Part shown: positions 23,968 through 54,060 of the stretch, one piece after another | How the letters are laid out: the number at the start of each line of letters is the position of its first letter | How positions within the stretch are numbered: the first letter of the stretch is position 1 | DNA from: Kribbella turkmenica | GTDB taxonomy: Bacteria; Actinomycetota; Actinomycetes; Propionibacteriales; Kribbellaceae | Direction: 5' to 3' | Length of the DNA: 60,331 nucleotides | Assembly (NCBI RefSeq): GCF_004348725.1 | Contig: NZ_SMKR01000018.1 | Span: forward strand, 1 to 60,331 | Made by a program: the position numbers and the translations under genes | Notes under the pieces: generated by a model | Told to the model about the DNA's origin: nothing | Database searches by the model: none | What the model saw: the letters and a program-made list of their open reading frames with translations, nothing else

Positions 23968-24999
23968 TTAGTCTAGTTTCGCCGGATGGACGATCCTGGG
24001 TGGAGCGGCGACCGAGCCGCGCTCGATCAGCGTCGGCTCGACGGTGGTCCGGCGGACGCGGCGGTTGGTGTCGACGGCGGACGTGACCCGCGCGACCACG
24101 TCGTTCACCAGGTCCTCGAGTGGCCAGTGGAAGGTCGACAGCGGCGGCGTGAGCAGCTGGGACAGCGGCTGGTCGTCGTAGCCGAGCAGGGAGACGTCGT
24201 CCGGCACGCGGAGGCCGAGCTCGCGGCCGGCTGCGTACACTCCGAAAGCCATCGAGTCGGCGAGCGCGAGAATGCCGGTCGGGCGGGAACTGCCGCTGAG
24301 CAGTTCGCGGGCCACCTCGGTGGCGCCGGCCAGGTCGTGCGGGCAGGGGATGATCCGGACCTTGAGCTTCAGGTCAGCGGCGACTCGCTGGGCGATCTCC
24401 TCGGCCGGACGCTGCGTCTCGAGACGGTGCGACGGGCTGAGCACCGCCACGCTCCGGTGACCCGCGTCGGCCAGCCGGCGCAGCGCCGTACTGACTCCGG
24501 TCTCGTTGTCGAAGATCACCTCGGACTTCGCCTTGGCGCCGGGGAGGGCGTCGCCGATCGCGATCACCGGCGCCTGCTGGGCGATCCTGGCCCAGCCCTT
24601 CGCGGCCGGGTTGACCGGAATCACCACGATCGCGTCGGCACGGTGGTCGACCAGGTGCTGGGCGAGCTCGAGCTGCCGGTCGGCGTCGCCGGCCGAGTCG
24701 ATGATCCAGGCGTTCCGGTCCGGTGCCAGCAGCTCGCGGCCGAGCGCGGCCGCGAGCCGTTGCTGCCAGAGATCCTCCAGGGACGCGCAGAGCACGCCGA
24801 CGGAGCCGCTGCGCCCGGACGCGAGCGCCCGGGCGACCGGGTCGGCCTGGTAGCCCAGCCGGTCGGCCGCATCCTGGACGCGTTGCCGGGTCTCCGGCGT
24901 TCCGTGCAGGCCACGCAGCGCGTAGGACACGGCCGCCATCGACAGGCCGGTCTCCGCGGCGATGTCCTTGAGGGTTGGCCTCCGGCCGGATCCGGACAT
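23968..24999 (-). CDS. LacI-family transcriptional regulator
   Basis: A 343-residue repressor. The LacI helix-turn-helix (PTLKDIAAETGLSMAAVSYALRG) and hinge (VARALASGRSGSVGVL) lead into a periplasmic-binding-type effector domain. The ATG at 24999 is chosen because the DNA-binding domain begins a few residues later and AGGG precedes it. It is divergent from the amidohydrolase gene, and two perfect TGAAGCGCTTCA palindromes lie between them, so it should repress that operon and perhaps itself. Confidence 0.92.
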   Translation of the reverse strand: MSGSGRRPTLKDIAAETGLSMAAVSYALRGLHGTPETRQRVQDAADRLGYQADPVARALASGRSGSVGVLCASLEDLWQQRLAAALGRELLAPDRNAWIIDSAGDADRQLELAQHLVDHRADAIVVIPVNPAAKGWARIAQQAPVIAIGDALPGAKAKSEVIFDNETGVSTALRRLADAGHRSVAVLSPSHRLETQRPAEEIAQRVAADLKLKVRIIPCPHDLAGATEVARELLSGSSRPTGILALADSMAFGVYAAGRELGLRVPDDVSLLGYDDQPLSQLLTPPLSTFHWPLEDLVNDVVARVTSAVDTNRRVRRTTVEPTLIERGSVAAPPRIVHPAKLD

Positions 25000-25085: not shown

Positions 25086-25112
25086 ATTTGATCAGGTCCA
25101 GGAGGTGACGCA

Positions 25113-26018
25113 GTGATCGACGTCCATCAGCACCTGTGGCCGGCCGAGTTCGTCGACCGGCTCCGCGCTCGCCGGGCCGCGCCGTACCTGGACGGCTGGA
25201 CGCTGCACACCGCGACCGAGGCGCCGCACGAGATCGACCCGGCGGCGCACGCGATCGACAAGCGGGTCGCGGTGGAGCAGGACGCCGGCACGGCGCTGGC
25301 CGTGGTGTCGCTGTCGAGTCCGCTCGGGATCGAGCAGCTGGGGGACGCGGCGCTGCTCGACGCTTGGCATGTGGGCACTGCCGCGCTGCCGAAGCCCTTC
25401 AAGGCGTGGGCGTCATGCGATCTGCGCGAGCCCGATGTGGCCGGCGCGGAATCCCTGCTGAACAAGGGATTCGTCGGATTGCAGCTGCCGGCGCACGTGC
25501 TCGGGACGCCGGCCGGGTGGGAGGCGCACGGCGAGCTTCTCGCGACGGCCGAGCGGTTGAACAAGCCGATCCTGGTCCACCCGGGCACCGCCGTACCGGT
25601 CGACGAGGCGCCCGGGTGGTGGGCGCCGGTGGTCGACTACTCGAACCAGCTGCAGGCCGCGTGGTGGGCCTGGCACGCGTACGGCGGGCGCCACCAGTTC
25701 CCGCGGTTGCGGCTGTGCTTCGTCGCCGCGGCCGGGCTCGCACCCGTGCACCACGAACGGCTCGCCGCCCGCGGCGGCGCGCTCGGCACCATCGACCCCA
25801 ACCTGTACGTCGACACCTCGAGCTACGGCCCGCAGGGTATCGACGCGGTCGCGCGGGTCCTCGGCATCGACCAGGTCGTGCACGGCACCGACCGGCCGTA
25901 CGCCGGGATCACCGACCACCGCCAAGGCGACGCCGCGACCGCGGTGATCCGCCACGACAACCCACACCGGCTCCTGTACGGAGCCGGGCAACCATCTCCT
26001 GAGAGGGGAGTGCAGTGA
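25113..26018 (+). CDS. Amidohydrolase-family protein (TIM-barrel metal hydrolase)
   Basis: A 301-residue amidohydrolase-2-type protein. The N-terminal metal motif is DVHQHLW. ILVHPGT, GLAPVHHERL and HGTDRPYAG carry other likely ligands of the (beta/alpha)8 barrel. Family members act on C-N, C-C or ester bonds, including decarboxylation. The GTG at 25113 has GGAGGTGA upstream. It is translationally coupled (GTGA) to a cysteine-dioxygenase-like cupin and controlled by LacI operators, so the pair is probably a small catabolic module. The substrate is unknown. Confidence 0.88.
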   Translation: MIDVHQHLWPAEFVDRLRARRAAPYLDGWTLHTATEAPHEIDPAAHAIDKRVAVEQDAGTALAVVSLSSPLGIEQLGDAALLDAWHVGTAALPKPFKAWASCDLREPDVAGAESLLNKGFVGLQLPAHVLGTPAGWEAHGELLATAERLNKPILVHPGTAVPVDEAPGWWAPVVDYSNQLQAAWWAWHAYGGRHQFPRLRLCFVAAAGLAPVHHERLAARGGALGTIDPNLYVDTSSYGPQGIDAVARVLGIDQVVHGTDRPYAGITDHRQGDAATAVIRHDNPHRLLYGAGQPSPERGVQ

Positions 26019-26575
26019 CTGCTCAGCCCATCGACGTACCAGTCGTCCCAGCGCGCCAGGCCAGCCGGCTCGTGGAGCTCAACAATTGCCTGTCGCTGGA
26101 CAACCTTCCGGGCCGGGACCTCGATCCCACCGAGTTGTCCGAACTCGCCGCGTCGGTCGCCGCCCAGCCGCACCTGTGGGAGGACATGGTCGCCTACAGC
26201 GACCAGGAGCGCGTCTTCGCCTCGCTCCACCGCGACGCCAACGTCGACGTCTGGCTGATCTGCTGGACGCCGGTCAACGACACCGGCTGGCACGACCACG
26301 ACGTCTCCTCCGGCGCGGTCGCGGTCGCCCGCGGCAAACTCGTCGAGCACAACCTCGCCATCGGCACCGAGTCCATCGAGACCGAGGTCGAAGCCGGCGA
26401 CGTCTACGGCTTCGGCCCCGACCACATCCACCGCCTCACCGGCCTCGACAAAGGCAGCGTCACCGTCCACGCCTACAGCCCACCCCTGTGGCGCATGGGC
26501 CAGTACTCGGTCAAGGAAGGGGTCCTCCGCCGCGTCTCCGTCTCCTACGCCGACGAGCTCCGCCCGTTGGACTGA
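26015..26575 (+). CDS. Cysteine-dioxygenase-like cupin protein
   Basis: A 186-residue cupin of the cysteine dioxygenase type I superfamily. The iron-binding motif WHDHDVSSG and a later His in FGPDHIHRL give the expected three-His site of non-haem Fe(II) thiol dioxygenases. True cysteine dioxygenases make cysteine sulfinate from cysteine and O2; bacterial relatives act on 3-mercaptopropionate and other thiols. Its start overlaps the amidohydrolase stop by 4 nt, and GAGGGGAG in the upstream gene is its ribosome-binding site. Confidence 0.85.
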   Translation: MTAQPIDVPVVPARQASRLVELNNCLSLDNLPGRDLDPTELSELAASVAAQPHLWEDMVAYSDQERVFASLHRDANVDVWLICWTPVNDTGWHDHDVSSGAVAVARGKLVEHNLAIGTESIETEVEAGDVYGFGPDHIHRLTGLDKGSVTVHAYSPPLWRMGQYSVKEGVLRRVSVSYADELRPLD

Positions 26576-28220: not shown

Positions 28221-28307
28221 ATGAGCACCTTCTCTGCCGGCCTCGTGGTCGCAGTGGCCCTGATTCTCTACCTCGTCGCCGCCCTGATCTTTCCCGAGAG
28301 GTTCTGA
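28221..28307 (+). CDS. kdpF: KdpF, small membrane subunit of K+-ATPase
   Basis: A 28-residue single-span membrane peptide ([21 protein letters not shown] and then LIFPERF). KdpF is a lipid-like stabilising subunit of the KdpFABC complex, and a length of 28-30 residues is normal. The ATG at 28221 starts the operon and its TGA shares one base with the kdpA ATG (TGATG). Confidence 0.9.
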
Positions 28308-32010: not shown

Positions 32011-32026
32011 GAGGTGGTAGTTGACA

Positions 32027-32593
32027 ATGGCAAGCAGTCTTCGGCAGGCCGGGGTGGCGGTCCGGGCGCTCGTGCTCTTCACCGTCGTCCTCGGCGTCGC
32101 CTATCCGCTGGCGATGACGGGCGTCGCGCAGGTGCTGTTCCACGACCAGGCGAACGGATCGATCGTCAGGGTGCACGGCCAGGAGGTCGCGTCCAGCCTG
32201 ATCGGTCAGCAGTACGGCGAGCGGTGGTTCCAGACGCGGCCGTCGGCGGCCGACTACGACGGGATGGGCAGCGCGGCCTCGCAGTACGGGCCGAACAACC
32301 CGGAGCTGGTGAGGCTGATCGACGAACGGCGGCGAGCGGTGGCCGAGCTGGAAGGCGTCAGCCCGGACCGAGTCCCGCCGGACGCAGTCACGGCGAGCGG
32401 CAGCGGCCTCGACCCGCACATCAGCCCTGCGTACGCCGCTCTGCAGGTGAACCGGGTCGCTCGCGCACGTGGCCTGCCGGTGGCCGAGGTCCGGAAACTG
32501 GTGCAGGAGAACACGGAGGGTCGCACGTTCGGCTTCCTCGGTGAGCCCCGGGTGAACGTGGTCAGCCTGAACGCCGCGCTGGCCGCGCTCTGA
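32027..32593 (+). CDS. kdpC: KdpC, accessory subunit of K+-ATPase
   Basis: A 188-residue protein with one N-terminal membrane helix and a periplasmic-type domain ending NVVSLNAALAAL. It has the family blocks WFQTRPSAADYDG, SGSGLDPHISP and NTEGRTFGFLGEPRVNVV. KdpC assembles with KdpB and raises ATP affinity. The ATG at 32027 lies 9 nt after GAGGTGG; a TTG at 32021 is too close to that site. Confidence 0.95.
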   Translation: MASSLRQAGVAVRALVLFTVVLGVAYPLAMTGVAQVLFHDQANGSIVRVHGQEVASSLIGQQYGERWFQTRPSAADYDGMGSAASQYGPNNPELVRLIDERRRAVAELEGVSPDRVPPDAVTASGSGLDPHISPAYAALQVNRVARARGLPVAEVRKLVQENTEGRTFGFLGEPRVNVVSLNAALAAL

Positions 32594-32605
32594 GAGCATG
32601 GAAGC

Positions 32606-35173: not shown

Positions 35174-35847
35174 CCAGGGTTCTGGTGGTCGACGACGAAC
35201 CGCAGATCGTCCGCGCGCTGCAGATCAACCTGCGGGCCCGCGGTTACGAGGTGCATCTGGCCGGTTCGGGGACGGCGGCGCTGAAGGTGGCGGCGCAGCA
35301 CCCGCCGGAGCTCGTCATCCTCGACCTCGGGTTGCCGGACTTCGACGGTGTCGACGTGATCCGCGGTCTGCGCGGCTGGTCGGGGGCGCCGATCCTGGTG
35401 CTGTCCGGGCGGACCGACCAGACCGACAAGGTCGAGGCGCTCGACGCCGGCGCGGACGACTACGTGACCAAGCCGTTCGGCATCGACGAGCTGCTCGCCC
35501 GGATGCGCGCCGTACTGCGGCGCAGCTACAGCTCCCAGGATCAGCCGGTGGTCACCGTCGGCGGCGCGACCGTGGACCTGGCCGCCAAGCGGGTGACGTC
35601 GGAGTCGGGGGACGACGTCCGGCTCACCCCGACCGAGTGGCACCTGCTCGAGGTCCTGCTCCGGCACCCGGGCAAGTTGATGTCGCAACGCCACTTGCTG
35701 ACAGAGGTGTGGGGGCCCGGCTACGAGAACGCGAGCGGCAACCTCCGCTTCTACATGGGCCAGCTCCGCCGCAAGCTCGAGCCGGACCCGGCCCGCCGCA
35801 AGCACCTGCTCACCGAACCAGGCATGGGCTACCGCTTCGAACCCTGA
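35170..35847 (+). CDS. kdpE: KdpE response regulator
   Basis: A 225-residue OmpR-type response regulator. The receiver domain has the acidic pocket VDDEP, the phosphorylated Asp at residue 52 (ILDLGLPD) and the Lys in TKPFG. The C-terminal winged helix includes LTPTEWHLLEVLLRHPGKL and RHLLTEVWGPGY. The GTG start is coupled to kdpD. It should activate kdpFABC, plausibly at the GTGAGA repeats in front of kdpF. Confidence 0.96.
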   Translation: MTRVLVVDDEPQIVRALQINLRARGYEVHLAGSGTAALKVAAQHPPELVILDLGLPDFDGVDVIRGLRGWSGAPILVLSGRTDQTDKVEALDAGADDYVTKPFGIDELLARMRAVLRRSYSSQDQPVVTVGGATVDLAAKRVTSESGDDVRLTPTEWHLLEVLLRHPGKLMSQRHLLTEVWGPGYENASGNLRFYMGQLRRKLEPDPARRKHLLTEPGMGYRFEP

Positions 35848-36863: not shown

Positions 36864-38075
36864 ATGCGCCGTCTCAAACAGCTCGTCGCCGCTCTGGCGC
36901 TGCTCGCGCTTCCGCTCACTCCCACCGCCTCGGCCTCGCCGTCACCCGACTGGATCGGCAGCTGGGCCGTCGCCGTCACTCCACCGGGTACGTCGGGGCT
37001 TTCGGCCACCGGTGTCACCGACACGACCCTCCGGCAGGTGGCTCACCTGAGCGCCGGCGGCTCGGAGCTGCGGCTGCGGCTGTCCAACGTCTACGGTAGG
37101 TCCCCGCTCGTCGTCGGCAAGGTGACGCTGACGCCGCGAGGTGACGACCTCGCGGGGACGCCGACGGTCGAGCCGTCCAAGCTGGTCCCGGTGCTGTTCG
37201 GCGGCCGGCCGTCGGTCACGATCCCGGTGGGTACCGAGTGGGTGTCCGATCCGGTGCGCCTCGCCGTACCGGACGACACCGACCTGGTCATCAGCACGTA
37301 CTTCCCTGGTCCGACGGGCCCGCTGACCCAGCACCCGGCCGGTTACGCCACGAGCTTCCTGGCCACCGGTGACCAGACCGGCGGCGACGGGTCGCAGTAC
37401 CAGGCGATCTCCGGGATGGCCCGGTACATCATCGAAGGTGTCGACGTGCGGAGCCGGGTGCGCGGCTCGGTCGTGCTGTTCGGCGACTCGATCACCGACG
37501 GCGTGGTGTCGCCGATCGACCAGAACCTGAGGTACCCGGACCAGTTGGCCGACCGGCTGCTGGCCGGGCCGGCGCACCGTGAGCTCGGCGTTCTCAACGC
37601 CGGGATCAGCGGCAACCGCCTGCTCAACAACGCCGGTACGGCGGGCGACTCGGCGCTGGCGCGGTTCGACCGGGACGTGCTCGGGCAGGCCGGCGTGCAG
37701 ACCGTCGTACTGCTCGAGGGCATCAACGACATCGGTGGCAGCCGCGGCGCGGTCGAGCCGGCGGCGTTGATCGCCGTGCACCGGCAGTTCATCGAGCGGG
37801 CGCACCAGGCCGGGCTGAAGGTGATCGGCGCGACGCTGACGCCGTACGAGGGCGCCGGCTACTACACGCCCGAAGGGGAGGCGGACCGGCAGGCGCTCAA
37901 CCACTGGATCCGGACGTCCGGTGAGTACGACGCCGTCGTCGACTTCGACAAGGCGGTCCGCGACCCGGCGGCACCGTCCAAGATGCTGCCGGCGTACGAC
38001 GTCGGCGATCACCTGCACCCGAACGCCGAAGGCTTCAAGGCAATGGCACAGGCCTTCGAGCTCAAGGAGCTCTAG
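36864..38075 (+). CDS. Secreted SGNH/GDSL-type hydrolase
   Basis: A 403-residue secreted esterase-type enzyme. A Sec signal ends near TASASPSPD. The GDS block holds the nucleophile (LFGDSITDG), with GISGNR (block II), GINDI (block III) and the Asp-His pair in DHLHPN (block V). The family cleaves acyl or aryl esters, often deacetylating plant polysaccharides. An N-terminal beta-rich domain (about 35-190) precedes the catalytic domain. GAAGGTGG lies before the ATG at 36864. Its TAG shares the tetranucleotide CTAG with the convergent lyase stop. Confidence 0.9.
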   Translation: MRRLKQLVAALALLALPLTPTASASPSPDWIGSWAVAVTPPGTSGLSATGVTDTTLRQVAHLSAGGSELRLRLSNVYGRSPLVVGKVTLTPRGDDLAGTPTVEPSKLVPVLFGGRPSVTIPVGTEWVSDPVRLAVPDDTDLVISTYFPGPTGPLTQHPAGYATSFLATGDQTGGDGSQYQAISGMARYIIEGVDVRSRVRGSVVLFGDSITDGVVSPIDQNLRYPDQLADRLLAGPAHRELGVLNAGISGNRLLNNAGTAGDSALARFDRDVLGQAGVQTVVLLEGINDIGGSRGAVEPAALIAVHRQFIERAHQAGLKVIGATLTPYEGAGYYTPEGEADRQALNHWIRTSGEYDAVVDFDKAVRDPAAPSKMLPAYDVGDHLHPNAEGFKAMAQAFELKEL

Positions 38076-39493
38076 CCGGACTCGGCGGGATGCTCGACCT
38101 GGCGGTCGCCCCACTGCGTGAGCAGGCCGCGGGCGATCTCCAGGTCCTCCCGCAGTGAGCGGTCGGTCAAGTCGCCGGGCAGCGCGGCCAGTGCGTCGGC
38201 GAGCCACGGCCCGACCGCGGCCGGTGCGAGATCGTCGGGCGACAGTCCGGCCAGGCGGATCGCCCGTACCGCGGTGACCAGTTCGCTGGCGAGCACCTCG
38301 CGCAGTGCGTCGAGGAGCTGTGCCGTCAGTACGGCGGCCTGGGGCGCGAAGCTGGCGTGGTGCTCGGCGCCCCGGGACAGCGTCGCCGTGCCGAGAGTCG
38401 CGGGCTGCGCCGACGACCGGACCGCCGCCAGCGCGTCGTGGGCGACGTACTCGATCATCATCACGCCCGAGCTCGCCGCGGCACCGCTGGCCAGGAACCG
38501 GCTCAACCCGGTGAACTCCGGATCGACCAGGTTGGCGACGCGGGACGTCGACAGCGTCGCCACGCTGTGCAGGCTGAGCCGGAGGGAGTCGAGGGCGAGC
38601 GCGATCGGCATCGCGTGCCAGTTGCCGTTGTGCAGCACGGTGTCACCGGCCACCAGTGGATTCTCCGCGGACGCGTTGATGTCGATCCGCAGGCCGTTGC
38701 CCAGAGCGTCTGCATGGTCGACGGCCGGGCCGAGCACCTGGGCGAACGCCCGCAGGCCGAACGGGTCCTGGACCCGGGCCGGCGGGATCGGCAGACCGTC
38801 CAGCAGTCCGCGCATCCGCCGCGCGACCCGAACCTGCCCCGGCTGCGGGCGGGCCTCCTGCACGCGAACGTCGTACACCTCGGCGTTGCCGCGGAGCGCG
38901 ACGTGCGACAGGGCGCCGACCAGCGGTACGACGTTGATCAGCGTGGCGGCCTCGACGTACGCCAGACAGCACTCGGCGAGCGTGATCGCGTTGCTGGACA
39001 GCAGTGGCAGGGCGCTGGTCCCGTCGACGACGTCGCCGAGGGCGAGGCCGAGCTCGGCCAGCGGACCGAGGTCACCGGTCCCGATGGCGCCGCCGCGGTG
39101 CAGATCGGGCAGCTCGTCGTCGTTGAGCAGGGCAACGATCGCGTCGGCGACCTCGGGTTCCAGCCCCGAGCCGCCGGCCGCGAGCTGGTTCACCCGGATC
39201 AGCAGCCCGAGCCGGACCGCGTCCTTGGGGTACGACGTCGTACCGGTGGTGGAGTGTGATCCGAGCAGACGGGCACCGTGCTCGGGGTCCGATGTCAGCA
39301 CGTCGCGGTTCGCGCCGACCCCGGTCGTCCGCCCGTAGACGGGTCGGTGCCGGGCCACCTCGGCCACCGTGGCGGCCGACTCACTCATCCGCTTGCGGGC
39401 GTCGTCGCTCAACCGCACCGCGGTCCGCCGCTGCCCGAGGGCAACGGCCTCCAGCGGGGTCAGGCCGACCCCGGAAAGCTCCACCGGTTCCAC
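38072..39493 (-). CDS. Histidine/aromatic ammonia-lyase paralogue with Gly-Thr-Gly in the MIO position
   Basis: A 473-residue member of the aromatic amino acid lyase family. It has the active-site Tyr loop (PVYGRTTGVGANRDV), the helical core and the EHHASFAPQ segment. Where canonical lyases have Ala/Cys-Ser-Gly, which cyclises to the MIO cofactor, it reads AIGTGDLGPLAELG, with Gly138-Thr139-Gly140. Cofactor formation is therefore uncertain. The GTG at 39493 is chosen because an 18-bp operator shared with hutH sits at 39548-39565, 55 bp upstream, the same distance as at hutH; a start at 39616 would bury that operator in coding sequence. The sequence is a little shorter than HutH (515). Confidence 0.85.
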   Translation of the reverse strand: MEPVELSGVGLTPLEAVALGQRRTAVRLSDDARKRMSESAATVAEVARHRPVYGRTTGVGANRDVLTSDPEHGARLLGSHSTTGTTSYPKDAVRLGLLIRVNQLAAGGSGLEPEVADAIVALLNDDELPDLHRGGAIGTGDLGPLAELGLALGDVVDGTSALPLLSSNAITLAECCLAYVEAATLINVVPLVGALSHVALRGNAEVYDVRVQEARPQPGQVRVARRMRGLLDGLPIPPARVQDPFGLRAFAQVLGPAVDHADALGNGLRIDINASAENPLVAGDTVLHNGNWHAMPIALALDSLRLSLHSVATLSTSRVANLVDPEFTGLSRFLASGAAASSGVMMIEYVAHDALAAVRSSAQPATLGTATLSRGAEHHASFAPQAAVLTAQLLDALREVLASELVTAVRAIRLAGLSPDDLAPAAVGPWLADALAALPGDLTDRSLREDLEIARGLLTQWGDRQVEHPAESG

Positions 39494-39660: not shown

Positions 39661-39906
39661 TTACGCCTTGCCGTAGCGCTTCTTGAACTTCTCGACCCGG
39701 CCCTGGGTGTCCATCACGCGCTGCTGGCCCGTGTAGAACGGGTGCGTCGCGGACGAGATCTCGACGTCGACGACCGGATAGATGTTCCCGTCGTGCCAGA
39801 CGATGGTCTCGTTGCTCTCGCGGGTCGAACCGGTGAGGAAGCTGAAGTCGCCGGACTTGTCCCGGAAGACGACCCGGCGGTAGTCGGGATGGATGTCCTT
39901 CTTCAT
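39661..39906 (-). CDS. rpmE2: Ribosomal protein bL31 type B (zinc-independent)
   Basis: An 81-residue type B L31 ([20 protein letters not shown], ending [12 protein letters not shown]) without the Cys pairs of the zinc-binding type A form. Bacteria replace zinc-binding L31 with this form under zinc starvation, freeing zinc. Its ATG overlaps the stop of the COG0523-family gene (ATGA), so the two are one operon. A Zur-like box lies in front of that operon. Confidence 0.95.
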
Positions 39907-41003
39907 GCAGCGGTACTTCCTTCCAGATAAGGGGCGAACGGATCGGTCAGGGGGTGGACCGCTTCGTCCGCACGTAGGACACAACCGTCGAGCCGCTCGC
40001 GGAATTCCCGGACGTCCAGGTCGATCCCGGTGAAGGACAGGTACGACGCCCGGTCGCCGTGCCGGGGGTGCCACTCGAGGGCCGACCGGGCTTGGTGCTG
40101 CTGCCCGACCCCGGTCCACCGGTCCGCCGGGAGGTCGGCCAGCCATGGGCCGAGCACCCCGACCGAGATGTTCGTGCCGAAGTTGTCCCAGCTGAGCCGG
40201 TTGCGGTGCTGCGTCGCGATCCACAGGGTCCCGCGGCCGCGCGCCGTACCGGCGACCAGGTCCTCCAGGGCGTCGTACAGCCGTTCGGGGTGGAACGGCC
40301 GGTCCGACTGCCAGACCAGGGTGCGGACCGGGCCGTCCTCCAGCGGGGCGCCGATCGACCCCGGCTCCGACCCGGTCCTGTCCGGGTCATGCAGTCGGAG
40401 GCCGAGGAGTCCGGCCGGTGTGGTCCGGACGAGCAGTCGGGGGTTGATGGCCTGGGTCATGGCCCGGACGGTGCTGTCGTCGGTGGTCAGGACGGCCGCG
40501 TTCGCGTACTCGAGCTGGCGTGCGATCACTTCGGCGATCGCGCGGTTGTCCTCGGCGGCGGTCGGGATGCCACGCTCCTGGATGGACCCGTCGCCGGTGA
40601 GGTCGTCGATCACGGTGCGGGTGTCGATCGTGGTGACGATCGCGTCGACGCGCAGTTCCCCGGACGTCTCCCGGGTGATCTCCTCGGCCAGCGCCTTGGT
40701 GTCCCCGGCGCCGGGCACCGACACGATCGCGGCGCCGTACCGCTCGACGGCCGCGATACTGTCCAGCAGCGCGACGAGCGAGCCGCGCATCGCGCAGGAG
40801 ACGCACGGGTGACCCAGCCGGATCATCTCGCGGTCGATCACCCCGCCGGCGGTTCGGGCGATCCGGACGACGGACCCGCCGGCCAGAGCACCGACGTCGT
40901 ACTCGACCAGGACACCGGCCGGACCGGCGGCGGCGAGCAGATGGCCCGCCACGGCGGCGCGGAACGGCTCGTCGACACCCGTCAGCAAGGTCACCGGTAG
41001 CAT
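39903..41003 (-). CDS. COG0523/MRF-like protein lacking the GTPase P-loop
   Basis: A 366-residue protein of the CobW/COG0523 superfamily with a recognisable metal motif [16 protein letters not shown] and a C-terminal CobW-C domain ([19 protein letters not shown]). The N-terminal P-loop is degenerate: [13 protein letters not shown] replaces the GxxxxGK(S/T) nucleotide-binding motif, so GTP hydrolysis is unlikely. The CVSC segment and its company, L31 type B and L33 beneath a Zur-like box, resemble the mycobacterial MRF factor that recruits a hibernation protein to ribosomes under zinc starvation. AGGAG lies 5 nt before the ATG at 41003. Confidence 0.8.
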
Positions 41004-41457: not shown

Positions 41458-42216
41458 CTACCCGTGCAAACGGCGAGTGAGTGCCGTCGCGGCCTGGCGG
41501 ATTCGGTGGGCCAGGAGGCGGCGTTCAGCGGGTGGTACGGCGTCGGTGCGGAAGGTGACGCTGATCGCGGCGACCGGGTGGCCGGCGTGGTCGACGGCGG
41601 CGCTGGCGACGGACGAGACCCCGGGGCTGATGAACGAGTCCTCGACCGCGAACCCCTGGCGCTTCTCGTCAGCGAGCAGACGACGAAGCTGCGTCAACGT
41701 CTGCGGCCCCTTGTCCGTGCGCCGTACGAAACTCTCCGGACCCGGAAAGAGCGCCCGCACCTGGGCGGCCGGCAGCTCCGCCAGCAACGCCCGCCCGGAC
41801 GCGGTGAGCGTCGCGGGCAACCGGACGCCGACATCCGTGACCAGCGTGACCGGCCGCGGCGGCTGTTCCTTCAACAGGTAGACCAGCTCCCGCCCGTGCA
41901 GTACGCCGAGATGCGCGGTCTGACCCACCTCCGCGACCAACTGGACGAGCAACGGACGCGCCAGCCGCTCCAGGGGATCGTGCCGCAGGTACGCCGACCC
42001 GATCTCGAACGCCGCCACCCCGAGCCCGTACCGCTTCTCCTCCGGCAGGTGGACGACGAAGCCCTCATCGATCATTGCCCGCAGCAAGTGGTACGTCGAC
42101 GAGCGCGGCAGGCCGACCGCGGAGGCGATGCGCTCCATCGGCACCGGTCCGGGCTGGGTGGCCAGGAAGGTCAGCACCCGCAGCGTGCGGGTCGAGGCGG
42201 GAACGTTGCCGCTCAC
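41458..42216 (-). CDS. IclR-family regulator, likely Hut regulator
   Basis: A 252-residue IclR-type protein. The winged helix (MERIASAVGLPRSSTYHLLRAMIDEGFV) is followed by the effector domain (GQTAHLGVLHGRELVYL, and PATLTASGRALLAELP near the pocket). It lies between the lyase paralogue and hutH. An identical-type 18-bp palindrome precedes both of those genes, making this its likely target; histidine or urocanate would be the natural effector. I do not see a copy of the palindrome before its own gene. Whether it activates or represses cannot be told. Confidence 0.85.
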   Translation of the reverse strand: MSGNVPASTRTLRVLTFLATQPGPVPMERIASAVGLPRSSTYHLLRAMIDEGFVVHLPEEKRYGLGVAAFEIGSAYLRHDPLERLARPLLVQLVAEVGQTAHLGVLHGRELVYLLKEQPPRPVTLVTDVGVRLPATLTASGRALLAELPAAQVRALFPGPESFVRRTDKGPQTLTQLRRLLADEKRQGFAVEDSFISPGVSSVASAAVDHAGHPVAAISVTFRTDAVPPAERRLLAHRIRQAATALTRRLHG

Positions 42217-44990: not shown

Positions 44991-46646
<1,656 letters not shown>

Positions 46647-46783: not shown

Positions 46784-47782
46784 ATGATCGAGTTCGAGGA
46801 CGTCACCAAGCGGTATCCGGACGGCACACTCGCCGTCGACACGCTGTCCCTGCGGATCCCGAGCGGTCAGATCACCGTGTTCGTGGGCCCGTCGGGCTGC
46901 GGCAAGACCACGTCGCTGCGGATGATCAACCGCACCATCGAGCGGACCAGCGGGACGATCTCGATCGACGGCGAGGACATCACCAGCAAGGACCCGGTGA
47001 CGCTGCGGCGCGGGATCGGGTACGTGATCCAGCACGCCGGCCTCTTCCCGCATAAGACCGTGGTCGACAACGTCGCCACTGTGCCGAAGCTGCTCGGCTG
47101 GGACAAGCGCAAGACCCGCGACACCGCGATGGAGCTGCTGGAACGCGTCGGCCTCGACCTCAAGCTGGCCGAGCGCTACCCGGCCCAGCTGTCCGGTGGC
47201 CAGCAGCAACGAGTCGGGGTCGCCCGCGCGCTCGCGGCCGACCCGGCGATCATGCTGATGGACGAGCCGTTCAGCGCCGTCGACCCGATCGTCCGTCACC
47301 AGTTGCAGGAGGAGCTGCTCCGGCTGCAGCGCGACATCGGCAAGACCATCGTGTTCGTCACCCACGACATCGACGAGGCGATCAAGCTCGGCGACAACGT
47401 CGCGGTCCTGCGGGTCGGCGGCAAGCTCGCGCAGTTCGCGCCGCCGTCCGAGCTGCTGGCGAATCCGGTCGACGACTTCGTCCGGGGATTCGTCGGCCAG
47501 GACCGGGGGTACCGAGCGCTCACGTTCGTGCACCCCCAGGAACTTCCGGTCGAACCGTTGCCGTCCGAGCTCGTGCTCGACGACTCCGGTGCGCCGGTCG
47601 GCTGGCGTGCCGACCACGAGCTGCTGCCGATCGGCGCCGTGTTCAAGCAGGGTGACTCGTTGCGGGCCGCGCTGGACGCCGTACTGACCTCTCCGACCGG
47701 CCGCGGCATCTGCGTGGACGACAGTGGCAAGGCCCTGGGAGTCTTCGACCAGGCCATCGTCGCAGAGGCGCTCCGGTCATGA
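46784..47782 (+). CDS. OpuCA/ProV-type ABC transporter ATPase
   Basis: A 332-residue ATPase with Walker A (GPSGCGKTT), signature (LSGGQQQRVGVARAL), Walker B (IMLMDEPFSAVDP) and H-loop (FVTHDIDEAIKL). A C-terminal region after about 245 resembles a degenerate CBS pair as in quaternary-amine importers. It belongs to the glycine betaine/proline betaine class. Its position between hutU and hutF suggests it imports histidine or a histidine derivative. Confidence 0.92.
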   Translation: MIEFEDVTKRYPDGTLAVDTLSLRIPSGQITVFVGPSGCGKTTSLRMINRTIERTSGTISIDGEDITSKDPVTLRRGIGYVIQHAGLFPHKTVVDNVATVPKLLGWDKRKTRDTAMELLERVGLDLKLAERYPAQLSGGQQQRVGVARALAADPAIMLMDEPFSAVDPIVRHQLQEELLRLQRDIGKTIVFVTHDIDEAIKLGDNVAVLRVGGKLAQFAPPSELLANPVDDFVRGFVGQDRGYRALTFVHPQELPVEPLPSELVLDDSGAPVGWRADHELLPIGAVFKQGDSLRAALDAVLTSPTGRGICVDDSGKALGVFDQAIVAEALRS

Positions 47783-47897
47783 CTGTGCACCTGGCCACGC
47801 CTCCGTCGCGGGGGTCGTGGGGCTTCGACTCCCGATGCCCCCTCGTCGCCCCAGTCGCTACGCTGCCTGCGCTCCTCAGTCCGAACCAGGAGGCCCC
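47783..47897. other. GC-rich spacer inside the importer operon
   Basis: A 115-bp gap between ATPase and first permease, longer than usual inside an operon. It holds imperfectly self-complementary G- and C-runs that could fold. No gene or operator is recognised. CCAGGAGGCC just before 47898 is the ribosome-binding site of the permease. Confidence 0.4.
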
Positions 47898-48557
47898 ATG
47901 ACCTGGACAGCAGACAACCTCGGGCTGATCTGGGAACAGTTGCGTGAGCACCTCTACCTGGCGATCGTCCCGGTGATCCTCGGACTGCTGATCTCGGTGC
48001 CGCTCGGGTACGTCGCCACCCGGTTCTCGTGGCTGGCGAATCCGCTGATCGCCCTCGGCGGCGTGCTGTACTCACTGCCCTCGATCGCGTTGTTCATCGT
48101 GCTGCCGGCGATCCTCGGGACCAAGGTGCTGTCGACGGTGAACATCATCGTCGCGCTGACCGTCTACACGGTCTCCCTGCTCATCCGGAACGTGATCGAC
48201 GGGCTGCGCTCCGTTCCCGCGGAGGTCCGCCAGTCGGCGGTCGCGGTCGGGTACGGCCCGTTGCACCGGCTGTTCGCGGTCGATCTGCCGATCGCCGTAC
48301 CGGTGATCTTCGCCGGCCTCCGGGTCGTCACCGTCGCGAACATCTCGATGGTGAGCGTCGGTGCGGTGATCGGCATCGGCGGTCTGGGCGAGCTCTTCAC
48401 CCAGGGCTTCCAGAAGGACTTCCTCACCCCGGTCGTGGTCGGCGTGGTGCTCTCGGTGCTGCTGGCCCTGCTGGCTGACCTGGTGCTGGTCGGACTGCAG
48501 CGGATCCTGACTCCCTGGGCGCGCGTGATCGCCGCTCCTCCGGTGGAGGTGGCCTGA
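47898..48557 (+). CDS. OpuCB-type ABC permease
   Basis: A 219-residue permease with five to six membrane helices. The family loop reads VRQSAVAVGYGPLHRLFAVDLPIAVP, followed by ANISMVSVGAVIGIGGLG. It pairs with the next permease. The start ATG at 47898 follows AGGAGG. Length is normal for a single-domain OpuC permease. Confidence 0.92.
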   Translation: MTWTADNLGLIWEQLREHLYLAIVPVILGLLISVPLGYVATRFSWLANPLIALGGVLYSLPSIALFIVLPAILGTKVLSTVNIIVALTVYTVSLLIRNVIDGLRSVPAEVRQSAVAVGYGPLHRLFAVDLPIAVPVIFAGLRVVTVANISMVSVGAVIGIGGLGELFTQGFQKDFLTPVVVGVVLSVLLALLADLVLVGLQRILTPWARVIAAPPVEVA

Positions 48558-48558
48558 C

Positions 48559-49209
48559 ATGTGGGAGTACCTGACCGACTCGTTCAACTGGTCCGGCCCG
48601 GAAGGGATCTGGGCCCGGATCATCGAGCACATCTGGTACACGTTCGCCGCCCTCGGGATCTCCGCGGCCATCGCGCTGCCGGTCGGCCTGCGGATCGGCC
48701 ACACCCGGCGCGGGGCCTTCCTGGCGATCAACCTCGGCAACGCGGCCCGCGCCCTGCCGAGCCTCGGGCTGCTGATGCTGGCGGTGCTGCTGACCGACCA
48801 GATCGGCTTCCTGCCGGTGCTGATCGCGCTGGTCGCCCTCGGGATCCCGCCGATCCTGGCCTCGACGTACGCCGGCCTGTCCGGTGTCGATCCGGCCACG
48901 ATCGACGCGGCCCGGGGGATGGGGATGACCGGACGAGAGATCCTGACGAAGGTGGAGATCCCGATCGCGATGCCGCTGATCATCTCCGGTCTGCGCGGCG
49001 CGACCCTGCAGATCGTCTCGACCGCGACGATCGCCGCGCTGGTGTCCCTCGGCGGTCTCGGCCGCTACGTGGTCGACGGGTTGAAGCTCCGCGACTTCCC
49101 GCAGATGTTCACCGGCGCGCTGCTGGTGGCCCTGCTCGCCATCGGTCTCGACGTGCTGTTCGCCGTCCTCGGCCGCGTCGTCGTCTCGAACGGCCTGAAG
49201 GCCGACTGA
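48559..49209 (+). CDS. OpuCD-type ABC permease
   Basis: A 216-residue second permease of the importer, with six predicted helices and the loop TIDAARGMGMTGREILTKVEIPIAMP. It starts 1 bp after the first permease's stop codon. Together with the first permease it should form the heterodimeric channel. Confidence 0.92.
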   Translation: MWEYLTDSFNWSGPEGIWARIIEHIWYTFAALGISAAIALPVGLRIGHTRRGAFLAINLGNAARALPSLGLLMLAVLLTDQIGFLPVLIALVALGIPPILASTYAGLSGVDPATIDAARGMGMTGREILTKVEIPIAMPLIISGLRGATLQIVSTATIAALVSLGGLGRYVVDGLKLRDFPQMFTGALLVALLAIGLDVLFAVLGRVVVSNGLKAD

Positions 49210-49305
49210 AGTGTCGGACCGGCCTGATCTGATGAACCTGACGAACCGCCCCATCGAAATATCCACCGGTAACGGCCGGTGGCTGACCAGACACTGGAGG
49301 CTCTC

Positions 49306-50238
49306 GTGTTGAGATCCACACTCGTCCGAACTGCGATCGCCGGGGTGGCGATGCTCGGCCTGGCCGGTTGTGGGGGTGGAGGCGATCAGCTGGGCGACAG
49401 TGACGCGGGTTCATCGCCCGCGCCGGACAAGGTCACCAGCATCACCGTCGGCTCGGCGGACTTCTCCGAGAGCCAGCTGCTGGCGGAGATCTACGGTCAG
49501 GCGCTGGCCGCGAAGGGCGTCGAGGTCACGCAGAAGCCGAACATCGGCAACCGCGAGACCTACATGGCCGCGATCAAGGACGGCTCGGTGCACCTCCTGC
49601 CGGAGTACACCGGTGCCGCGCTGCACTACTTCAAGTCCGACTCCACCGAGACCGAGGAGCAGGCGACGTACGACGCGCTGAAGTCGTCGCTGCCGTCCGG
49701 GCTCGAGGTGCTGGAGAAGTCGCCGGCGGCCGACGAGGACACCATCGTGGTGACTAAGGCGACCGCGGACAAGTACGGCCTGAAGACGCTGGCCGACCTG
49801 AAGCCGGTCGCGAAGGACATGGCCGCGGGCGGCAGCTCCGAGTTCAAGGTGCGCGACGCCGGGCTGAAGGGGCTGAAGGAGAAGTACGGCGTCGAGTTCG
49901 GCAAGGAGTACAAGACGCTCGACGCGGGTGGTCCGCTGAGCCTGAAGGCCCTGCTGGACAACCAGATCCAGGTGTCGAACTTCTTCACCACCCAGGCGCT
50001 GATCAAGGACAACAACCTGATCATGCTGGAGGACCCGGAGAACATCCTGCCGCCGAACAACGTCGTTCCGCTGATCCGGACCGACCACAAGTCGGACGAC
50101 GTCGCCGCGGCGCTGAACGCGGTGTCCGCCAAGCTGACCACGGAGGCGCTGACCGAGATGGTCAAGCGGATCGACGTCGGCAAGGAGTCGCCGAACGCGG
50201 TCGCCAAGGACTGGCTGTCGAAGAACCCGCTGTCTTGA
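49306..50238 (+). CDS. Quaternary-amine-type substrate-binding lipoprotein (OpuCC-like)
   Basis: A 310-residue binding lipoprotein: signal peptide with lipobox LAGC, a Gly/Ser/Asp-rich linker, then an OpuAC-type domain (ITVGSADFSESQLLAEIYGQAL, then HLLPEYTGAALHYF). This class binds compounds such as glycine betaine, proline betaine, choline and, in some bacteria, ergothioneine. The GTG at 49306 has GGAGG 5 nt upstream. The gene is followed, by TTGA overlap, by the M20 amidohydrolase, linking import to the Hut genes. Confidence 0.92.
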   Translation: MLRSTLVRTAIAGVAMLGLAGCGGGGDQLGDSDAGSSPAPDKVTSITVGSADFSESQLLAEIYGQALAAKGVEVTQKPNIGNRETYMAAIKDGSVHLLPEYTGAALHYFKSDSTETEEQATYDALKSSLPSGLEVLEKSPAADEDTIVVTKATADKYGLKTLADLKPVAKDMAAGGSSEFKVRDAGLKGLKEKYGVEFGKEYKTLDAGGPLSLKALLDNQIQVSNFFTTQALIKDNNLIMLEDPENILPPNNVVPLIRTDHKSDDVAAALNAVSAKLTTEALTEMVKRIDVGKESPNAVAKDWLSKNPLS

Positions 50239-51593
50239 GCTTCGAGGACATGTGGGCGGCGCTGGCCGCCGTCGGCCGGGACCCCGACACCGGGGGTTAC
50301 CGCCGCGGCGGCTGGACGCCGACCGAACGCGAAGCCACCGCCTGGTTCACCGACCAGTGCACCCGCCGGAACCTGACCCTGGAATCCGACGGCATCGGCA
50401 ACCTCGTCGCCTGGTGGTCTCCGCGTGGCGAGCCGGCTCGCCACGCGGAGCTCGGCATACCGGGTGCTCCATCGAGCACCGGCACCCGGGATTCCGCAAC
50501 CGCCGCCGGCCGCCGGGGCACGGGCCTGGGCGCTGGGGATGCTGCGGCGTCTCCAGCCAGTCCCGGCTCTGCTGCAACCCCGGCCGGAGGGCCGGCCTCC
50601 CGGCCGGGCATCGTCACCGGAAGTCATCTGGATTCGGTGATCGACGGTGGGGCTTTCGATGGGCCGTTGGGGGTGGTTTCGGCTCTGGCGGCGGTGGACC
50701 TGTTGCGGGCTGAGGGCTTCGAGCCGTCCGTGCCCATCGGGGTCGGGGCGTTCGTGGAGGAGGAAGGGTCGCGGTTCGGGATGCCTTGCCTGGGGTCTCG
50801 GGTGGCGGCGGGAGTCCTGCCTGCGGAGCGGGCGCTGGCGTTGACTGATCGGCAGGGGGTGTCGCTGGCGGCGGCGCTCGAGGCGGCGGGGACGGATCCG
50901 GCGGGTGTCGGGCCGTCGCCGTTGCTGGCGAAGATGGGGACGTTCGTCGAGTTGCACGTCGAGCAGGGGCGCGGGCTGACCGCGCCGGTCGGGGTGGCGA
51001 GCTCGATCTGGCCGCACGGGCGGTACCGGTTCACCTTCGGCGGCGAGGCCAACCACGCCGGCACGACCCTGATGGAAGACCGCCACGACCCGATGCTCAC
51101 CTACGCCATGACCGCCCTGGCCGCCAACAAACAGGCCCGCCTCACGGGCGCCCGCGCGACCTTCGGCCGAGTCTCCGTCGAGCCCAACGGCACGAACGCG
51201 GTGCCGTTGCAGGTGACCGCCTGGCTGGACGCCCGCGCCGCCGACGAGGCCGCCCTCGAATCGTTGCTTGCAGCAATCACCAGGCAGGCGGCCGAGCGCG
51301 CCGAACGCGACGGTACGACGCTCGACGTCGTCCCCGAGTCCGTCTCCCCGAGCGTGGACTTCCCGGCCGGGTTGCGCGACCGCCTGGTCGACGTACTCGA
51401 CGGCGCGCCGGTGCTCCCGACCGGGGCCGGACACGACGCCGGGGTGTTCTCGGCCGCCGGCGTCCCGACCGCGATGCTGTTCGTGCGGAATCCGACCGGC
51501 ATCTCGCACTCACCGGCCGAGTTCGCCGAGCCTGACGACTGCCTGGCCGGCGTGGACGCGCTGGCCGCCGTACTGAGGGATCTCGCGAAGTGA
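50235..51593 (+). CDS. M20-family amidohydrolase (allantoate amidohydrolase-like) in the hut operon
   Basis: A 452-residue member of the M20 Zn-dependent amidase group. Metal and catalytic motifs are TGSHLDSV, FDGPLGV, EEEGSRFG, HVEQG, GEANHAG and the late His in ISHSPAEF. It overlaps the binding-protein gene (TTG start, TTGA) and hutF (GTGA), so it is translated with them. Relatives hydrolyse allantoate, N-carbamoyl or N-formyl amino acids. Since HutF yields N-formylglutamate and no HutG is present, deformylation of that product is a plausible role. Residues 62-126 are an extra low-complexity insert encoded by palindromic DNA. Confidence 0.88.
   Translation: MSFEDMWAALAAVGRDPDTGGYRRGGWTPTEREATAWFTDQCTRRNLTLESDGIGNLVAWWSPRGEPARHAELGIPGAPSSTGTRDSATAAGRRGTGLGAGDAAASPASPGSAATPAGGPASRPGIVTGSHLDSVIDGGAFDGPLGVVSALAAVDLLRAEGFEPSVPIGVGAFVEEEGSRFGMPCLGSRVAAGVLPAERALALTDRQGVSLAAALEAAGTDPAGVGPSPLLAKMGTFVELHVEQGRGLTAPVGVASSIWPHGRYRFTFGGEANHAGTTLMEDRHDPMLTYAMTALAANKQARLTGARATFGRVSVEPNGTNAVPLQVTAWLDARAADEAALESLLAAITRQAAERAERDGTTLDVVPESVSPSVDFPAGLRDRLVDVLDGAPVLPTGAGHDAGVFSAAGVPTAMLFVRNPTGISHSPAEFAEPDDCLAGVDALAAVLRDLAK
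50419..50612. repeat. Palindrome-rich in-frame insertion in the M20 gene
   Basis: About 194 bp with three palindromic blocks. A perfect 32-bp palindrome spans 50419-50450 (half CTCCGCGTGGCGAGCC). An inverted repeat CCGGGTGC/GCACCCGG at 50460-50467 and 50482-50489 encloses GTGCTC/GAGCAC. A CCGGCCGG-rich near palindrome lies at about 50579-50608. The frame stays open and encodes a Gly/Ala/Ser/Pro-rich stretch absent from the family core, between NLVAWW and IVTGSHLDS. Confidence 0.75.
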
Positions 51594-52900
51594 CGTCGTA
51601 CTGGTGCTCGAGCGCCCTCCTGCCGACCGGGGTCGCCGAGCGCGTATTGGTGACAATCGCCGACGGACGCTTCGCCGCGGTCGAGACGAACGCCGAGCCC
51701 GGCGACGCGATCCGCCTCCGCGGCCTGGTCGTCCCGGGACTGGCGAACTGCCACAGCCACGCCTTCCACCGGGCGCTCCGCGGCCGGGCGCAGACCGGGC
51801 GCGGCACGTTCTGGACGTGGCGCGAGCGGATGTACGCGGTCGCGTCGATGCTCACCCCGGAGTCGTATTACCAACTCGCCCGCGCCGTGTACGGCGAGAT
51901 GGTGCTGGCCGGGATCACCGCGGTCGGCGAGTTCCACTACCTGCATCACGCCCCCGGCGGCCGCCGCTACGACGACCCGAACGCGATGGGTGCCGCATTG
52001 ATCGCGGCCGCCCGCGACGCCGGCATCCGGATCACCTTGCTGGACACGTGTTACCTCGCCGGCGGGATCGACCAGCCGCTCAACTCCGTGCAGGAGCGGT
52101 TCAGTGACGGCGACGCCGCCCGCTGGGCCGCCCGGGTCTCGGCCCTGACCGGCTCCGACGACGTCGTGATCGGCGCGGCCGCGCATTCGGTCCGCGGAGT
52201 GCCTCAAGATCAGCTCGGCGCGGTCGCGTCCGCGTTCCCGGACGCGCCGCTGCACATCCACCTGTCCGAGCAGGTCGGCGAGAACGCGGCCTGCCTCGAC
52301 GCCTACGGTCGTACGCCGGCCCAGGTCCTGGACGAGAGCGGCTTCCTCAGCGGACGGACGAGTGCCGTGCACGCCACGCAGCTCACCGACGTCGACGTGG
52401 GTGTGCTCGGCAGCTCGGCGACGTACTCCTGCTTCTGCCCGACGACCGAGCGGGATTTGGCCGACGGCATCGGCCCGTCGGTGGCGCTGCGGGACGCCGG
52501 GTCGCCGTTGACCCTCGGGTCGGACAGCCACGCGGTGATCGACCTGTTCGAGGAGATGCGCGCGGTCGAGCTCGACGAGCGGCTCGCCTCGCAGGAACGC
52601 GGCCACTGGTCCGCGACCGAGTTGCTCAAGGCGGCGACGGCCGACGGGCACCGGTCGATCGGGTTCGCCGACGCTGGCGTGATCGAGGCCGGTGCTCGTG
52701 CCGACCTAGTCGCCCTTCGCCTGGACAGCGTGCGTACGGCGGGGACCGGAGGAACAGTGGAGACCGCCGTGTTCGCGGCGTCGGCCGCCGATGTCACCGA
52801 CGTGGTCGTCGGCGGACGGCGACTGGTTGCTGATGGCAATCATGTGAAGCTGGACGTGGCGGCGGAGCTGACAGCCTCGATCGGAGTAGTGACCGCGTGA
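51590..52900 (+). CDS. hutF: Formimidoylglutamate deiminase
   Basis: A 436-residue amidohydrolase that converts N-formiminoglutamate to N-formylglutamate and ammonia, the fourth Hut step in the five-step variant. Metal motifs include [27 protein letters not shown] and [16 protein letters not shown]. Its GTG overlaps the M20 stop by 4 nt, and its own stop overlaps the hutI GTG by 4 nt. Confidence 0.95.
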
Positions 52901-54060
52901 CCTCGCTGTTGCTGACGAACATCGGTTCGCTGGTGACCAACGACCCGGCCCGCGGCGAGCCGCTCGGCGAACTCCGGGACGCCGCGCTGGTGGTCGAGGG
53001 CAGCAAGGTCGCCTGGGTCGGGCGGCGTCAGGACGCCCCGGCGGCCGACGGGGCTGTGGACCTCGGTGGGCGGGCGGTGATCCCGGGGTTCGTCGACTCG
53101 CACGCGCACCTGGTGTTCGCCGGCGACCGCGCCGACGAGTTCGCCGCCCGGATGACCGGTACGCCGTACTCCGCGGGCGGGATCCGGACGACGGTGGCGG
53201 CGACCCGGCAGGCCACCGACCAGGCGCTGACCGCGAACGTCGGCCGCCTGGTCACCGAGATGCGCCGGCAGGGGACCACCACGGTCGAGATCAAGTCCGG
53301 GTACGGGCTGACGGTCGCCGACGAGGCGCGGGCGCTACGGATCGCGGAGCAGTTCACCGACGAGACCACCTATCTGGGGGCGCACGTCGTACCGGCGGAG
53401 TTCGCCGACGACCCGGCGGGCTATGTGTCTGTGGTGACCGGTCCGATGCTCGACGCGGTCGCGGAGCACGCCAAGTGGATCGACGTCTTCGTCGAACGCG
53501 GCGCCTTCGACGAGGACCAGGCCCGGGCGATCCTGACCGCCGGGCAGAGGAAGGGCCTGGTCGCCCGGGTGCACGCGAACCAGCTCGGCGAGGGCCCAGG
53601 CGTCCAGTTGGCCTGCGCGATCGGGGCGGCCGCGGCCGATCACTGCACCTACCTGTCCGACGCCGACATCGACGCCCTCGCCTCGACCGGCGTGGTCGCG
53701 GGGTTGCTGCCCGCGGTCGAGTTCTCGACGCGGTCGCCGTACCCGGATGCCCGGCGGCTGATCGACGCGGGAGTGACGGTCGCCCTGGCCACCGACTGCA
53801 ACCCGGGCTCCGGCTACTCATCCTCCATGCCGCTGTGCATCGCGCTGGCCGTGCGCGAGATGCACATGACCCCGGCCGAGGCGTTGTGGTCCGCGACCGC
53901 GGGCGGTGCGGCGTCGTTGCGGCGTACCGATGTCGGCCGGCTGACCCCGGGGGCCCGGGCCGACCTGGCCGTGCTCGACGCGGCGTCGTACATCCACCTG
54001 GCGTACCGTCCCGGCGTCCCCCTGGTCAGCCAGACGTTCACCGGCGGCCGCCCGGTCTAG
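52897..54060 (+). CDS. hutI: Imidazolonepropionase
   Basis: A 387-residue amidohydrolase opening the imidazolone ring to give N-formiminoglutamate. Motifs: [36 protein letters not shown], and [15 protein letters not shown]. Translation is coupled to hutF. It is the last gene of the operon; no terminator hairpin was found in the 21 bp before the convergent gene's stop. Confidence 0.96.

Follow-up and report, generated by a model that had tools for sequence, protein, structure and literature searches.

The window analysed here, a stretch of 60,331 nucleotides at the start of the Kribbella turkmenica contig NZ_SMKR01000018.1, encodes a paralogue of histidine ammonia-lyase (HAL, the product of hutH) that has lost the residues from which the cofactor 4-methylideneimidazole-5-one (MIO) is made. 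We propose that this protein and its orthologues, hereafter the clade, are histidase-fold lyases without MIO whose substrate is a histidine betaine, in all likelihood hercynine (N-alpha-trimethylhistidine), from which they eliminate trimethylamine to give urocanate, an explanation that accounts best for the evidence and to which we assign a probability of roughly 0.5. MIO enzymes activate the ammonium group of their substrate for leaving, whereas trimethylammonium needs no such help; MIO would not be required here because trimethylammonium is already a good leaving group. The reaction would be an acid/base 1,2-elimination, in which the conserved Tyr53 would probably act as base and Arg248 would bind the carboxylate, and its product would pass to the enzymes of the neighbouring hut operon (HutU, HutI, HutF and an M20 hydrolase).

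Loss of the MIO-forming tripeptide

The features compared in this section are:

38072..39493, minus strand: HAL-fold lyase paralogue ('GTG' clade), very probably MIO-less; 473 amino acids, GTG start at 39493, stop at 38072
39074..39082, minus strand: codons of Gly138-Thr139-Gly140 (numbered from the GTG at 39493), where HutH has the MIO-forming tripeptide; shorter than HutH here by one residue
43355..44974, plus strand: HutH, the comparison protein, an ordinary histidase whose MIO triad is Cys-Ser-Gly (NF006871 690 bits, cut-off 524)

The frame of the clade gene, read from 39493 to 38072 on the minus strand, contains no internal stops, and its start codon agrees with that of 21 orthologous loci (88–95% identity; 20 from Kribbella and one from a Streptomyces sp.), all of which open with M/V-E-P. 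Pfam assigns the protein to a single family, PF00221, at 313.7 bits (cut-off 27.3). None of the nine NCBIfam models that it matches reaches its cut-off, and these include the two hutH models, TIGR01225 (237.9 against 539.15 bits) and NF006871 (251.6 against 524). The genome holds three PF00221-family paralogues: the clade protein, HutH and one encoded on contig C30.

The motif of the clade protein, RGGAIGTGDLGPLAELG (residues 133–149, including Thr139), reads I-G-T-G-D where HutH has G-C-S-G-D. A preliminary description of the window had reported Gly-Thr-Gly in place of the MIO tripeptide; the motif is as described and the MIO-forming Ser is gone, but the exchange is not one-for-one, as one residue has been deleted. 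In a MAFFT alignment of 58 family rows, the segment bounded by the conserved Pro and the conserved Asp is shorter by one residue in all 38 clade rows than in HutH, and in all of them the gap sits on the Ala/Cys of Ala/Cys-Ser-Gly; the position of the gap depends on the aligner, while the difference in length does not. All 12 HutH rows carry Ala or Cys followed by Ser, and none has the deletion. At the Ser position the clade has Thr in 36 rows and Ile in two (L147, L152), Ile being present also in the truncated L066, and the Gly that follows is replaced by Ala in two rows (L139, L155). The clade protein very probably does not make MIO.

The motif is conserved. IGTGDL is present in 21/21 orthologous loci; 38 genomes of the genus, including that of K. 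turkmenica itself, are listed with the clade gene at 86–100% identity when 147 genomes were drawn from the order, and no genome of the genus appears among the unmatched genomes listed from that draw (34 more unmatched genomes lie outside the list). Comparison of the window gene with 17 orthologues gave dN/dS ratios of 0.048–0.130 in all 17 pairs. For these reasons the motif cannot be put down to chance or sequencing error, and a pseudogene or an error as its source is very unlikely.

The clade extends well beyond Kribbella. A profile built from eight members scored clade genes at 332.8 bits or more and HutH-type matches at 302.3 or less (up to 314.2 in a second search), a separation that fails where a gene or match is cut. 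By this search the clade is present in 30 of 394 genomes of the class: 29 by list, and G242, whose partial match reaches 448.9 bits once read whole. Outside the class, further members were found among 396 genomes of the phylum in G539, G620, G610 and G774 (the last on a short contig), so that the clade occurs in the 38 listed genomes of the genus and across Actinomycetota. In a maximum-likelihood tree of 58 rows the 38 clade rows form one group with support of 100/99, which answers in the affirmative the earlier question of whether the G-T-G form marks a conserved clade. The remaining rows are 12 HutH (98/94), three of an Ala-type described below, three further MIO-less proteins and two of ergothionase type. 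L153 (an overlapping copy of L058) and the truncated L066 (genome G092, motif SMGIGDL) were left out of the tree, and L152 is a clade member by its placement there. The codon-usage gene caller from which gene orders were taken left the clade gene of L146 and of L154 uncalled; the counts of clade genes rest on a hidden Markov model search of all frames.

Catalytic residues, fold and the parallel with ergothionase

Apart from the motif, the protein retains the catalytic residues of its family. Tyr53, Gln242, Arg248 and Glu377, which we take to correspond to HAL residues Tyr53, Gln277, Arg283 and Glu414, are invariant in an alignment (A2) of 38 rows, 37 from the clade and one HutH. With HutH (that of P. 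putida, 1b8f, and that of the window) the clade protein shares PF00221, the fold, the Tyr loop and what we take to be the equivalents of His83, Gln277, Arg283 and Glu414. It differs from HutH in lacking Ala/Cys-Ser-Gly, in its length and in having S-S-N-A (30 of 38 clade rows) for the I-N-G-T of HAL; after GVG-x, 25 of the 38 rows have Asn, and 34 have Arg or Lys at the next place. An AlphaFold2 model built from 38 sequences has a mean predicted local distance difference test score (pLDDT) of 92.2 and a predicted template modelling score of 0.92. The best match to this model among 998 aligned chains of the PDB is ergothionase of T. denticola (6s7j; Z 41.4, 2.3 Å over 459 residues), a small lead over tyrosine aminomutase (Z 40.3) and the HALs of T. 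acidophilum (40.2) and P. putida (40.0). Alignment, model and structural matches agree with the preliminary description that the Tyr loop and the rest of the fold are intact.

Ergothionase also offers the nearest precedent for the motif. Its sequence SSIGEGDITTL contains the same one-residue gap, reading I-G-E-G-D with no MIO-forming Ser, so that the clade protein and ergothionase (6s7j/6s7q) both present a MIO-less I-G-x-G-D motif on the HAL fold; a relative of ergothionase from S. meliloti has the same gap in GSVGQADMTLL (V-G-Q-A-D). S-x-N-A is shared as well, ergothionase having S-C-N-A with GVGWNK and most clade rows S-S-N-A with Asn-Arg/Lys after GVG-x. A 2026 study that cites the structure paper describes ergothionase as lacking MIO (PMC13405746). 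HAL-fold lyases without MIO are already known as a kind. The two proteins nevertheless differ: ergothionase has Glu where the clade has Thr, identity in the structural alignment is 25%, and they occupy separate places in the tree. Membership of the clade protein in an ergothionase clade was considered and rejected, as the clade (100/99) excludes 6s7j and the S. meliloti relative L158, the only two ergothionase-type rows, which group together with 100/100. Nor is the deletion by itself a mark of ergothionase, since the Ala-type paralogues share it. We regard ergothionase as a probable mechanistic parallel and not as evidence of family membership.

Among the ideas in the preliminary description, elimination from an already activated amine is the best supported, because the same change is seen in ergothionase, a HAL-fold enzyme that is reported to lack MIO and that sets trimethylamine free. 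The clade protein is probably a catalytic lyase acting on a trimethylammonium compound, and the chances that this compound is hercynine in particular are about even.

An ergothioneine dioxygenase and its partners

A possible source of hercynine is encoded in the same window:

23971..24999, minus strand: LacI-type regulator next to the dioxygenase pair (Pfam PF00356/PF13377)
25113..26015, plus strand: Amidohydro_2 hydrolase paired with the dioxygenase (PF04909; remote PDB matches only)
26072..26572, plus strand: ergothioneine dioxygenase, by homology (cupin, CDO_I; PF05995; 199–204 bits to 8qfl–8qfr)

The seven entries 8qfl–8qfr are titled 'Ergothioneine dioxygenase' and come from Thermocatellispora tengchongensis. 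The model of the window cupin (pLDDT 89.4) matches them with Z of 23.3–25.2 and 54–58% identity in the structural alignment, while the other thiol dioxygenases listed reach Z of at most 17.4 and identity of at most 21%. Judged by homology and predicted structure, the window cupin is an ergothioneine dioxygenase; in our proposal it would be the upstream partner of the clade lyase and not the lyase itself. Work from 2024 on oxidative ergothioneine degradation reportedly describes a dioxygenase and a metal-dependent sulfinate hydrolase that together yield hercynine and sulfite, and the amidohydrolase at 25113..26015 is presumably the ergothioneine-sulfinate hydrolase giving these products. In genomes with the dioxygenase and its partner amidohydrolase, as in the window, hercynine would come from oxidative desulfurisation of ergothioneine, and in those without the pair it would be imported. 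The genome also encodes EgtD (374.9 bits, cut-off 290.9), and therefore the host can probably synthesise hercynine itself. One further paper (PMC11818489) has ergothioneine dioxygenase producing trimethylamine, a statement on which we do not rely.

The dioxygenase is found with the clade in other genomes. For comparisons of gene neighbourhoods we used 36 clade loci, excluding those of Kribbella; the cupin lies near the clade gene in 11 of them and an Amidohydro_2 gene in 10. The LacI-type regulator, amidohydrolase and cupin occur together in nine distinct clade-bearing loci (L058 and L153 counted once) in addition to the window (23971–26572), and in L148 a rhodanese-domain gene lies between the clade gene and the cupin. 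Scores of the cupin profile show a clear gap, from 247 bits or more down to 165, with 24 of 394 class genomes above it. The subfamily so defined is present in 12/30 clade genomes compared to 12/364 others (p = 5.5e-9, uncorrected for ancestry), although in three of the 12 (G354, G061, G079) it lies on a different contig from the clade gene.

The hut operon and its importer

The genes through which urocanate would be degraded, and a candidate route of uptake, lie on the other side of the clade gene:

41458..42216, minus strand: IclR-type regulator beside the hut operon (IclR-type models, all below cut-offs)
45009..46646, plus strand: HutU, urocanate hydratase, the expected acceptor of the urocanate product (Pfam Urocanase domains, 206–310 bits)
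46784..50238, plus strand: OpuC-type ATP-binding cassette (ABC) importer, comprising ATPase, two permeases and, at 49279..50238, OpuAC binding protein (Pfam; binding protein nearest Lmo1422/EgtUC in the PDB, cage partly kept)
50235..54060, plus strand: remaining genes of the hut operon (for the M20 amidohydrolase, HutF and HutI)

Clade genes elsewhere are also associated with hut functions, hutU lying near 15 of the 36 loci and an M20 hydrolase near 13. All 30 clade genomes of the class have a second PF00221-family match, which has a HutH-like score in at least 22; in the others this second match may be another piece of one gene. By comparison, any family match at all was found in 220 of the 364 class genomes without the clade (p = 1.1e-6 against 30/30). 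The presence of a second, HutH-like protein is consistent with a product destined for the hut pathway.

An OpuC-type importer, scored as a binding protein or as permeases with an ATPase, is near the clade gene in 26/36 loci compared to 2/19 control loci, the latter being HutH loci from genomes in which no clade gene was detected, hand-picked from the HutH matches listed (20 picked, L182 left out; Fisher p = 1.3e-5). In the window it lies inside the hut operon, 7.3 kb from the clade gene. The window binding protein is closest in the PDB to Lmo1422 (4z7e; 93.6 bits) and EgtUC (7txl; 91.4), with ProX at 79.4. Its residues were compared with the ligand-site residues described for EgtUC (PMC9732360). 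The equivalents of Glu375 and Arg379 are kept, Tyr stands for Phe293, Phe for Tyr419 and Asn for Tyr443, and acidic residues lie around Asn339 and Tyr341. The importer may therefore carry a protonated amine, or may bind a betaine in a mixed cage, to judge from these residues. As proof of a betaine substrate it was set aside, the cage being only partly kept.

Alternative explanations

Of the alternatives, the one that survives best is a lyase or isomerase that is active on some other imported, hut-linked compound, whose amine is free or partly methylated or whose leaving group is different (N-methylated histidine or cis-urocanate, for example). The linkage to hut genes, with hutU near 15 of the 36 loci, fits such a substrate, and acidic residues at part of the importer cage are what would be expected for a protonated amine; in addition, the same type of importer stands beside a HutH in L166, whose genome yielded no clade gene. 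However, ammonium is a poor leaving group without MIO, and the nearest characterised MIO-less relative uses a trimethylammonium compound, so that we consider this explanation unlikely.

The clade protein could also be a MIO-less trimethylamine-lyase that acts, as ergothionase does, directly on ergothioneine or on its oxidised forms (sulfinate, sulfonate), giving thio- or sulfo-urocanate. The motif change is the same as in ergothionase, there are sulfur genes nearby, such as the cysteine dioxygenase-type cupin and the rhodanese-domain protein in L148, and the dioxygenase subfamily accompanies the clade in 12 of its 30 genomes. On the other side are the separate position of the clade in the tree, its Thr in place of the ergothionase Glu and the 18 clade genomes that lack the dioxygenase subfamily. 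The second family match in all 30 genomes, HutH-like in at least 22, fits sulfur-free urocanate better, and the determinants by which EgtU recognises the thione are absent from the importers. Direct action on ergothioneine is accordingly improbable, a little more so than the use of another imported amine.

A non-catalytic paralogue, such as a regulatory partner of HutH, was suggested in the preliminary description and would account for the lost cofactor residue and for its occurrence alongside HutH-type proteins in the same genomes. It is very hard to reconcile with the catalytic residues invariant in A2, the strong purifying selection, the presence of conserved motifs that are the clade's own and unlike those of HutH, and the linkage of the gene, in different families, to an importer and regulators of its own. 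Least probable of all is the variant cofactor of the same description, in which the Thr would be cyclised and dehydrated to a methyl-substituted MIO in a histidase or other ammonia-lyase: the Thr hydroxyl could be dehydrated and all 38 clade rows retain the Asp that follows the motif, but the loop is one residue short, ergothionase-type relatives have Glu or Gln at this position, and a cofactor derived from Thr is unlikely because Ile replaces it in two of the 38 rows.

Several observations weigh against the elimination of trimethylamine from hercynine. The ergothionase-type rows group with HutH and other rows, albeit with weak support (83/61), the deletion is found in 3/3 Ala-type paralogues, and the plasmid-borne relatives L157, L160 and L162 have lost more of the motif; since the tree does not support a grouping of the clade with ergothionase, the deletion may have arisen more than once. 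The association tests take no account of shared ancestry. The importer test used controls chosen by hand, and as 12 of its 26 importer-linked loci (ten family codes in all) come from one genus-level group, it overstates the number of independent events. As for the importer itself, the EgtU determinants (a four-sided aromatic cage, G244 and a Tyr-to-Phe switch; PMC9732360) are not found in the window binding protein, which lacks the G244 signature and the switch. Two of the four aromatics of the quaternary-ammonium cage are kept, with acidic residues and Asn or Gln in place of two of the Tyr, and among 27 aligned binding proteins from clade-bearing loci, that of the window included, only L146 has the full cage (L121, L127, L134 and L155 are gapped at several sites, and L058 and L153 overlap, representing the same locus). 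The importer of L166 stands apart from any detected clade gene. The clade gene of Kribbella adjoins MRF and L31 genes and lies outside the hut operon. Finally, the dioxygenase subfamily is absent from 18 of the 30 clade genomes, and of the 24 genomes in which it does occur, 12 are without the clade.

We propose tentatively, and at somewhat less than even odds, that these proteins make up a family in their own right, as yet unassigned, of MIO-free lyases that remove trimethylamine from hercynine, closing the gap between oxidative desulfurisation of ergothioneine and histidine catabolism. A literature search found no paper naming a hercynine lyase, and broader searches, judged by titles and the openings of abstracts, showed none that described one; this is a weak negative as most subscription journals were outside the search. 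If the proposal is correct, there is an enzyme for the conversion of hercynine to urocanate that ties the breakdown of ergothioneine to the hut pathway and to the release of trimethylamine in soil, and Actinomycetota could achieve complete mineralisation of ergothioneine or hercynine, with glutamate, sulfite and trimethylamine as end products. A gene family that PF00221 detects, and that readily receives the name 'histidine' or 'aromatic amino acid lyase', would lack the defining cofactor and carry out different chemistry, and such names would be wrong across many Actinomycetota. The HAL superfamily would comprise several independent MIO-less branches, some of them paired with OpuC-type importers, and the MIO enzymes, ergothionase with its Glu and the clade with its Thr or Ile would form a natural series for amine elimination on one fold with and without MIO.

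Other MIO-less relatives and neighbouring genes

A second MIO-less clade of HAL paralogues carries the motif G-S/A-A-G-E, in which the Ser is replaced by Ala, and forms its own branch (100/100). Its members are G000:C30:20405-21601 (L150:8037-9710), L062:10976-12442 and L148:12361-13860. In L062 the Ala-type gene lies beside a gene of the ornithine cyclodeaminase/mu-crystallin family (PF02423), with a clade gene and HutH within 12 kb.

Three further relatives lack the MIO triad. L160:7923-9470, on an Agrobacterium tumefaciens plasmid, is annotated as 'aromatic amino acid ammonia-lyase' and has GSVGYLIATSH; its neighbours are an OpuC-type importer, a coenzyme A (CoA) transferase, a 3-hydroxyacyl-CoA dehydrogenase and an enoyl-CoA hydratase, and it is perhaps another betaine lyase, whose acrylate product would be converted to CoA thioesters. 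L157:7800-9416 (Burkholderia cenocepacia) and L162:7938-9428 (Rhizobium esperanzae) are HutH-like with GSVGYLTH and GSAGYLTH respectively for the triad, and the latter, annotated hutH, adjoins an ABC importer and other hut genes.

The ergothionase relative L158:7899-9566, on pSymA of Sinorhizobium meliloti (GSVGQADM), scores 302 bits to 6s7j and is perhaps periplasmic, as by eye its start resembles a signal peptide. Among Klebsiella plasmid records, 190 match this protein (about 30–32% identity among those listed) and 196 match the window clade protein; the matches listed are annotated as histidine or aromatic amino acid ammonia-lyases.

Just upstream of the clade gene, at 39661-40994 on the minus strand, are an L31 gene (PF01197) and a COG0523-like GTPase that is nearest to the MRF ribosome-hibernation model, below its cut-off. 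Pairs of L31 and COG0523-type genes belong to zinc-starvation responses. A zinc-starvation link for the clade gene was considered and rejected, as a hairpin-like stretch, seen by eye, separates the genes, and MRF adjoins the clade gene only in the window and in five Kribbella-type loci among those shown (L006, L009, L018, L019 and L025). Further away, a kdp potassium-transport operon occupies 28307-35847 on the plus strand and encodes KdpA, a KdpB-like P-type ATPase, KdpC, the sensor kinase KdpD and a response regulator.

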